Assembly (NCBI GenBank): GCA_947490615.1
Contig: CANLHK010000005.1
Coordinates: 150,576-214,575, forward strand
Reading direction: 5' to 3'
DNA length: 64,000 bases
Source: Planctomycetaceae bacterium
GTDB lineage: Bacteria > Planctomycetota > Phycisphaerae > Phycisphaerales > SM1A02
Shown here: positions 1-5,279 of the stretch, in pieces
Position numbering within the stretch: position 1 is the first letter of the stretch
Layout of the letters: each line of letters begins with the position of its first letter
Translations under genes and position numbers: made by a program
Notes under the pieces: model-generated
What the model was told of the DNA's origin: nothing
Seen by the model: only the letters and a program-made list of their open reading frames with translations
The model's database searches: none

Positions 1-3000
1 GCAGCGCCCGCCTTCGCAGCGGACACGAGTGCAGCGGGCCATCGCGAACGATCCGATAGGACAGCGGTCAGCGCGCCGACCACGACCTCAGGCGAAACAT
101 GCTTGAGTTGAATGACGCGGAAGTCTGCTTGCGGTGACGCGAACGCCTTGCCATCGAGCTCGCTGAGCAACTCCTTGGCGCGCGCCGTGCCTTCGGCGCT
201 TCCAACCACCACGATCGTGCCCGACTGCGGCAGCGCCGAGAGTTCGATCCGCGACACTCCCGCAGAACCGGCGCTCTCAAGAATCCGTCGCGCTTCCTCG
301 ACGAGTGCGGCCACGGGCGCCTTGCTCGGCGTGAACACCAACCATGTGCGTGACGCTGCATCGCCGTCGCGGTCGAGTTCCTTGATGAGTCCCTCGGCGA
401 TACTCATGATGCGCGCGGCACCTGAGACGATGAGCGAGTTGGTGCGCGCGTCGGCCTCGACACGCACCGGCGGGACTTCGACGAGTTGGCCGCGCGTGCG
501 GCGCATGCGCTCAAGCGCCACGCGTGGATCGGTGTCCTGCTGATCCGCAAGCAAGCGTTGCACCAGTGGTGCGATGCGCGCGCTGTCGGTGTTCTTGAGT
601 GGGAAAGTCTTGGCGTCCACTGAGTCGAGCGCGGGGCGCTCGTCGAGAGATGCGATGAGTTTGTCGGCCTCGTCGAGGTCGGTCGCTGGACCAACCATGA
701 GAAGCGCGTTCGAACCCGTCGCAGCGATGACCTTCACCGCGAGCGCTTCGTGCGTCAGCGGATTGGTGCCTGCTGCCAGCGCAGGCGTGAGGCTGGCCGC
801 GACCTCGGTCGCATCGGCGTAGAGCAACGGACGCACACGCACGATGGGATCGCCCGTCGAGACGCTGCCGTCATCGAGTTGACGAACCAATTCATCGACG
901 ACAGGCATGAGCACATCGGGCGCCGACACGATGAGGGCGTTGGAGCGGCGATCGGCAGCGATGTCGAGCACGCGCGTCGCGCGACTCGCCAAAGTGGGCT
1001 CGATTTCAGCCAAGCGTCCTTCGAGCGCGCTGCGCACCAATGGTGCGAGCAGCTCGGACTTCGCGCTCTTGAGTTTGAACACGCGCAGAGTCGTCGCAGG
1101 CTGTGCCGCGCCCTCGACGCCACGCACGACTTGTTCAATGCGTGGGAACACACTCGTCGGCGCGCTCACCACGAGCGTCTTGGACACGGGCTCCACCGTG
1201 ACGACCGCATTGGTGCCCTCAGGCCCAAGCTTGCCTGCAGTCGCGAGCTCGCGAATCGTCTTGGCGATGCTTTCGAGATTGCCGTCAGCCAAGCGCCAAG
1301 TACGGATCTCTGCCTCAGGCATGGCCTGGGTGCGATCGAGTTGCTCGACGAGTTTCTCGAAACCCGCCATGCGCGACAACGGCGCGTCGACAATCAGTGA
1401 GTTGGTTTGCACATCGGCGCGCACCACGACTTCACGCGGCGGCTGCAACTCGGGGCGCGCACGACCACGCGGATCGACGGGGACCGGCGGCGCGGGATAC
1501 ATCTCGTCAATGGTCTTGGCGAGCTCTGCGGCGCGCGCGACTTTGAGCGAGAAGATGCGGATCTCACGGTCCGATGCCGATTGTCGCGTGGCGCCGTTGA
1601 GGTCTTCAACGATCGCCTGAATCTCAGGCAAGAGGTCAGGATGTGCCGCCACGATGAGCGCGTTGGTCTGCGCTTCCGCGGTGATCTGCACCGGCTTCGC
1701 GCCCTTCTCTTCGGGCGTGCGCTGCGCGTAGGTCTGCATGAGCGCCGTGGCAAGCACCCCCGCGTCGGCGCTGCGCAACTGGAGGATGCGCAACGGCGGC
1801 GTCGCTCCCGATGGCACATCGAGGTTCTTCAACAGCATCGTGAGCAACTCATGCTGCCGCGAATCCGCCGCGACGAGCAAGGAGTTGGTGCGCTCGAGCA
1901 CTTCGATCACGGGCTCACGCGCGAAACCTGAACTCTGTCCGAGGCGACTCGCTGCGAGTCCATCGAGATACACCTTCGCATCAACGGCCTTGGCGAAACC
2001 CATGGGGATCACGCGGACATCCGCACTCGGACTCGTGGCCACGACAAGTTGTCGGAACGCATCGGAAAAACGCGCGAGCAGTTCATCCTCGCCACTGGCG
2101 ACGATGGTGCCGTTGGCGACATCGATCTCGGTCTCGATCGCAGGTGGTTGTCCTTCGATCGGCTCAAGCGACGCAAGTTTGAGCGCCTTGCCGAGCAGCG
2201 TCACCGCATCACCAGCGCCCACATCGATCACGCGCACGCCGCGCTTGGTGGGAACTGCCTGCAGCTGCTTGAGCAGTTGCTCGGTCTTCTCGAAGGTCAT
2301 CGAATCGCCTGCCACAATGAGCGTGCGACTCGTGGGCTCGGTCTGAATCACCACTTCGACGGGCTTCGCGCCATCAAGACCAGGTTTCGCGAGCATGCCG
2401 CGCGCGCTGAGATCGCGCAGCGTCTGCCCGATCCGCTCCATGTCGCCCTTCTCCACGCGATAGGTGCGCAGTTCTGCCTGCGGCGGAAGCGGCGTGCGAT
2501 CAAGCGTGAGGACCAACTGTTCGAAGCTCGCGCGTCGTTCCGACGGTGCTTCGACGATGAGTGAGTTCGTCGTGACATCCGCGGTCACGAAGACATCCTT
2601 GGGCTTCTGCAGATGTGGCAACGGGCGACCACGCGCATCGAGTGGCACTGGTGGTGGTGGATAGAGCTTGTCGAGCGCGATGGCGAGGTCGGCCGCCTTG
2701 GCAGCCTTGAGCGCCATGACAAAGGTCTCGCGGGTAGGACCCGATCCGGTGTCACCCGAGCGATTGAGTTCGGCGATGAAGCCCTTGATCTCATCAAACA
2801 CCGACGCGTGCGCGGTGACAATGAGGGTGTTGGTTGTCGCGTCACTCTCGATGCGAACGGGCTTGGAGCGACGCTCTTCAGGCGCGCGCTCGTCGTAGCG
2901 CTTGGACAACATCGCCGCGACTTGCATCGCATCGCCACCGCGCAATTGCAACAGGCGCAGTGGTGGAAGCTCTTCGGGCGACGCGATGTCGAGGTCGCGC

Positions 3001-5279: not shown

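Follow-up and report, generated by a model that had tools for sequence, protein, structure and literature searches.

A giant type II secretion system secretin with 52 tandem N1-type domains in a Phycisphaerales planctomycete and its possible assembly into a periplasmic ring stack

How many periplasmic rings can a secretin carry, and what would a very long stack of them be for? These questions are raised by a type II secretion system (T2SS) secretin gene, gspD, that begins in a 64,000-nt stretch of a Phycisphaerales genome assembly (i.e., the window; C5:150576-214575) and runs out of its left edge. The N-domains of known secretins each form a ring, and these rings are stacked; ordinary GspD proteins have the domains N1-N2-N3, and known relatives have 3 to 5 copies of the ring-forming domain. 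To our knowledge, no secretin has more than a handful of periplasmic rings. The first-pass annotation of the window described a minus-strand frame of at least 1,759 codons, absent from the open reading frame track, that encodes a signal peptide and about 20 N-domain copies next to a pseudopilin operon. It placed the secretin barrel, if any, to the left of position 1 and considered a separate repeat scaffold as an alternative.

The frame starts with an ATG (MKKRTKRS...) at window position 5279 on the minus strand, with a GGAG motif 5' of it, and is open down to position 1 without an in-frame stop. By direct reading, the N terminus of the protein is basic and then hydrophobic (i.e., signal-peptide-like), and the distance from the start to N0 is similar in the orthologs. 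When the contig was extended leftward, a stop was reached only at C5:141440, approximately 9.1 kb past the window edge, and the region contains no N. Counted from the MKKRTKRS start, the giant GspD has 4,804 residues (514.5 kDa) and consists of a signal peptide, an N0-like domain, 52 tandem N1-type domains (units), and a secretin barrel. The window (1..5279, minus strand) holds the signal peptide, the N0-like domain, 20 complete units, and part of unit 21, while 31 further units and the barrel lie outside, down to C5:141440. Thus, the earlier count of about 20 copies holds for the window but not for the whole gene (approximately 52), and the frame is indeed unlisted in the track, merely because it exits the window. 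In a Pfam scan, 45 stretches matched Secretin_N (1,350 bits), and the PF00263 barrel was matched over its complete profile length at residues 4562 to 4728 (162.8 bits; C5:141671-142171), on the side of position 1 where it had been anticipated. This C-terminal barrel in the same continuous frame rules out the barrel-less scaffold, and a frame error is ruled out by 4,804 codons without a stop or an N.

The protein is a true T2SS secretin GspD on the basis of its profile matches, its predicted fold, and its place in an operon with the order gspF-G-H-I-J-K-L-M-D, after which comes a small gene for a lipoprotein that overlaps gspD at its end. TIGR02517 (the GspD equivalog) scored 1,269 bits on the whole protein and 367 bits on the last 811 residues alone (cut-off, 351.35). 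For the same residues, TIGR02515 (PilQ) and TIGR02516 (YscC) remained below their own cut-offs, and identities as PilQ or as YscC of the type III secretion system were rejected. The type IV pilus secretin PilQ is additionally disfavored by the lack of an AMIN match in the giant GspD (Pfam) and by the locus, which includes pseudopilins and a gspG over its cut-off instead of a pilM-N-O-P-Q arrangement. Two AlphaFold2 single-chain models were built, one of the barrel plus the six units preceding it (mean pLDDT, 70.5) and one of N0 with the first nine units (mean pLDDT, 78.2). Every modeled unit exhibited the beta-alpha-beta-beta-alpha order of ring domains. Foldseek matched the C-terminal model to cryo-electron microscopy structures of T2SS GspD (5zdh, 1.9e-26; 6i1x; 5wq8; 6hcg) and the N-terminal model to N0-N1-N2 of PulD and XcpQ as well as to a GspC-GspD complex. 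The operon genes and the hidden Markov models thus agree with the first-pass reading of a T2SS secretin, and the structure prediction that it had proposed returned the ring-domain pattern. GspD proteins of this family (TIGR02517; PulD, 6hcg; EpsD, 5wq8; ETEC GspD, 5zdh; XcpQ, 5wln) carry three Secretin_N domains versus 52 in the giant, and most full-length chains matched in the PDB have 524 to 657 aa versus 4,804 aa.

Units were counted with a profile built from the giant GspD itself, which gave 53 matches tiling residues 157 to 4486. Two adjacent matches (residues 2036 to 2092 and 2121 to 2200) are halves of a single domain split by an insertion (unit 25), and the count is therefore 52; a broader profile likewise yielded 52 units. 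The linkers between the self-profile matches are mostly approximately 2 to 5 residues long, with a few longer ones, and the median identity between units is 0.21.

Repetitive genes are prone to misassembly, and collapse or expansion of the repeats had been named in the first-pass annotation as a possible source of error. However, the same architecture is carried by the closed single-contig genomes G024 (4,856-aa frame) and G046 (4,634-aa frame), by the same-genus genomes that yielded a complete frame, and by 660 relatives in the protein database (E ≤ 1e-20; 0.55 to 1.75 times the length of the giant). The frame is split or truncated in some same-genus genomes, the assemblies of which are fragmented. 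Additionally, the units have diverged far past the level that confuses assemblers, and substitution patterns indicate that purifying selection acts on all 52 of them: the nonsynonymous and synonymous divergences from G008 are 0.10 (dN) and 1.03 (dS), and pN/pS is ≤0.64 for every unit in six comparisons. We therefore regard an assembly or annotation artefact as practically negligible.

The order of the units is also conserved. All 52 units were reciprocal best hits on the diagonal when compared with those of G024, a member of another genus (median identity, 44%); the collinear reciprocal best hits numbered 48 of 52 for P0049, 47 of 52 for P0095, and 33 of 50 for G046, a member of another family (shuffled controls, 2 to 7 on the diagonal). 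By this measure, the k-th unit of the giant is orthologous to the k-th unit in other genera, and the array therefore predates the split of these families. In a census of the 120 best database relatives, in which the count error is approximately one unit, N0 was present in 110, of which 47 have 51 to 53 units; the remaining N0-bearing relatives have 32 to 35, 37 to 39, 41 to 47, 49, and 56 units. The repeat-number variation that the first-pass annotation had suggested looking for thus exists among lineages (typical counts, 52, 50, 47, 43, 37, and 32), and the shorter relatives have lost blocks of units. Distant relatives keep the same copy number in the same order, which suggests that selection acts on the length of the array itself.

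Could such an array have persisted without a benefit? A neutral ratchet, in which the array grew by benefit-free duplication and persists as stacked units are hard to remove, would be consistent with the residual partial internal duplication in the giant GspD (units 9-10 versus 14-15, 43 to 54% alike) and with the intermediate secretins of 6 to 15 units elsewhere in Planctomycetota. However, dN/dS is low at every unit, the 52-unit count has been stable over deep divergence though deletion plainly happens, and two or more large expansions ended at comparable sizes (43 to 47 and 50 to 56 units); we thus consider such a ratchet very improbable. Alternatively, the tube may be long as a periplasmic collecting chamber or docking surface rather than as a membrane bridge, and its individually conserved units would bind different substrates or partners. 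The strong divergence among units that are each conserved across species, and the conserved insertions in some of them (e.g., unit 25), would suit this explanation, but no unit of the giant GspD contains a foreign domain and block losses (from 52 to 47, 43, 37, and 32 units) are tolerated across genera. We give it little credence.

We instead favor, as the probable explanation, a GspD whose periplasmic part grew to 52 N1-type domains that form a ring-stacked tube across an enlarged periplasm. Approximately 15 chains would assemble, with each unit forming one ring as in known secretins, and approximately 53 rings would stack into a tube of approximately 130 to 220 nm hanging from the outer-membrane barrel (predicted 15-mer mass, approximately 7.7 MDa). 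This length is the product of 53 rings and a spacing of 2.5 to 4.2 nm, where the lower value is that of tightly packed GspD rings (approximately 2.5 nm per ring) and the upper value derives from the length of PilQ minus a barrel of approximately 10 nm. The reading is supported by the very short linkers, as in stacked rings, and by the PilQ of Thermus thermophilus as a precedent for rings spanning a wide periplasm. That protein has six rings and a length of 350 Å, read as spanning most of the wide periplasm (PMC5745081), and the Thermus periplasm measures approximately 70 nm versus approximately 30 nm elsewhere (PMC13039148). Its partner, PilW, has a homology region (HR) domain and a long flexible linker, and its gene adjoins pilQ (PMC13039148). 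Thus, Thermus PilQ (N0-N5, 757 aa) resembles the giant in its extra N-rings, which its authors attribute to adaptation to a wide periplasm, and in the HR partner gene beside the secretin gene (the HR match is weak for the giant), but it has six rings versus the approximately 53 predicted here and is a type IV pilus secretin instead of a T2SS secretin.

The corresponding partner of the giant would be the 382-aa GspM/PilO-like membrane protein encoded directly upstream of gspD (5446..6594, minus strand), which shares the PilW-type plan: its membrane part is followed by a proline-rich linker and then by a small beta domain at the C terminus. This domain weakly resembles the HR of GspC/GspB/PilP, on the basis of a T2SSB match at the C terminus of one ortholog (E = 0.004, under the cut-off); when a profile of the protein was compared with the PDB in search of an HR domain, nothing matched meaningfully. 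N0 would dock on the HR-like domain, and the tube would lead a pseudopilus of matching length to the gate. The periplasm of planctomycetes is enlarged and has deep invaginations (PMC5394234), which makes a length of 130 to 220 nm conceivable for a tube that would cross it. More tentatively, and with slightly less than even probability, the tube may be a molecular ruler (approximately 53 rings, 130 to 220 nm, approximately 8 MDa) whose ring number is set by envelope geometry, i.e., by the membrane-to-membrane distance at the site of the machine, and which arose at least twice and was passed between Planctomycetota and Verrucomicrobiota.

Several observations weigh against this proposal. The PF21305 (N0) match in the giant GspD is weak (E, approximately 0.008; under the cut-off), the inter-domain orientation is unreliable in both models (pTM, 0.30 to 0.34), and the unit number ranges from 32 to 56 inside a single order. 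Additionally, the same genome carries another T2SS-type operon with gspE, F, G, K, L, and D (L155, C3:158000-176500), the secretin of which is an ordinary one of 918 aa with four N1-type units, as well as flagellar rod/ring genes, including ordinary-looking FlgF/FlgG, FlgA, and FlgH. Since the second secretin and the flagellar genes are ordinary, a wide membrane gap cannot be uniform; for this reason, we hold the ring stack with moderate confidence and its role as a ruler more cautiously. The giant machine either works in invaginated zones or is long for another reason. The L155 operon represents a natural within-cell control for the giant. TamB length was also considered as an independent measure of periplasm width and was uninformative, since none of 18 genomes of the order (G000 and 17 relatives) matched TamB (PF04357), while 6 of 14 controls did.

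The poorly defined inter-domain orientation and the differences in unit count among lineages would also fit a protein in which the units near the barrel form rings and the rest is a flexible chain of folded beads (one per subunit), which links the pore in the outer membrane to the inner membrane across a variable distance or interlocks with peptidoglycan, with no closed tube. As Thermus PilW shows, a variable spacing can be accommodated by flexible linkers (PMC13039148). However, linkers of mostly 2 to 5 residues leave little slack for a tether, and a tether has no need of 52 individually conserved positions. We consider a bead chain unlikely and retain the ring-stacked tube as the preferred reading.

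Where did the giants originate? Among the matches listed for 401 genomes of the phylum, frames longer than approximately 2,000 aa that match the C-terminal profile occur only in the order of the window, and those outside this order have approximately 340 to 1,500 aa. The named records with close matches carry the labels Phycisphaerales or Phycisphaerae. A contig scan also revealed giants in Verrucomicrobiota-labeled records, the complete ones having 42 to 47 units in frames of 3,959 to 4,311 aa. Giants appear to be rare there, because 300 genomes sampled from the phylum of the Verrucomicrobiota giant G442 contained no further giant at E ≤ 1e-60. Most giant-bearing Verrucomicrobiota genomes (L145-L150; G441-G449) also encode a separate barrel-only secretin of approximately 400 to 470 aa. 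Further records labeled Cyanobacteria, Proteobacteria, or Akkermansia muciniphila (L071, L077, L074, L078, and L079) have giants that group with those of Phycisphaerales or other Verrucomicrobiota, and their labels are probably wrong.

The giants fall into group A (this genome, G024, G046, G043, X456, X450, and X454) and group B (G041, G060, X451, and the Verrucomicrobiota), between which essentially just the last two units correspond. In a tree of the last units and the barrel, clades A and B were supported at 100/100 and 97/97, respectively, with the 3-unit GspDs elsewhere, and the Phycisphaeraceae record G060 was nested among Verrucomicrobiota, so that one clade spans Phycisphaerae and Verrucomicrobiota. 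Given how little of the array corresponds between the two clades, the expansion would have occurred at least twice, and the simplest reading of these relationships is at least two separate expansions plus at least one transfer between phyla. The mid-sized secretins of other Planctomycetota (approximately 1,080 to 2,270 aa; 6 to 15 N-units) belong to the same barrel family and represent moderate array growth, but they are not giant; except for the locus L092, these other Planctomycetota form clades separate from the giants. L092 has at least 35 units within a clade of 10- to 15-unit secretins, which suggests a third expansion. The insertion in unit 25 (a unit that covers residues 2036 to 2200) is kept at the equivalent place in most arrays of group A, including those shortened upstream of it, and is possibly a mid-tube gate.

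The remaining genes of the operon lie upstream on the minus strand: gspL (PilM-like; 6591..8180), in which the pilM match is weak here and the G027 ortholog matches PilM_2 at 1.3e-9; gspK, a large minor pseudopilin with HHH (8201..9760), the orthologs of which match T2SSK and HHH_3; the minor pseudopilin genes gspJ-like (9757..10455; N_methyl and a weak T2SSJ), gspI-like (10452..10907; GspI, 3.6e-5), and gspH-like (10904..11713; profile matches); the major pseudopilin gene gspG (11796..12371; TIGR01710, 100.7 bits; cut-off, 88.85); and gspF (12458..13834; PF00482, 2.5e-56). The match in gspF begins at residue 66 to 68, and its true start is probably inside the listed frame. Upstream of gspF, a secreted-looking protein with a PEP-CTERM-like tail is encoded on the same strand (13713-14738). 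Downstream, a 186-aa lipoprotein gene overlaps the gspD stop (C5:140883-141443; L005:3384-3944; minus strand); it is kept beside the giant gspD in the family of the window and in G043/G047 (28 to 76% identity), and its product is a candidate pilotin or secretin accessory. The operon order is kept in G024, G027, G043, and G046, as far as the components are detectable. In sister lineages with a 3-unit GspD (G048, G056, G044, and G053), the operon is of the same type (F, G, and D detected in all, others in some), and the dramatic difference between the giant and 3-unit operons lies only in the secretin. The gspE gene is non-adjacent in clade A; some relatives, from clade B or with 3 units, have it next to gspF.

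Some copies are labeled in databases as "type II secretion system protein D" or "secretin N-terminal domain-containing protein." A literature search on giant or many-domain secretins and the planctomycete T2SS, with most subscription journals and preprints outside its reach, found no description; the sequences are thus already deposited, and a secretin of such size is one for which we found no paper. A conserved 52-domain secretin with a fixed count in dozens of species would imply either a machine approximately 10 times longer than those known or a novel use of ring domains. The lineages provide a natural series of 3, 6 to 15, 32, 37, 43, 47, 50, 52, and 56 units for studying the scaling of envelope-spanning machines. 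If the ruler reading is true, the ring number would predict the inter-membrane distance, giving the disputed envelope of planctomycetes a molecular readout that can be tested directly.
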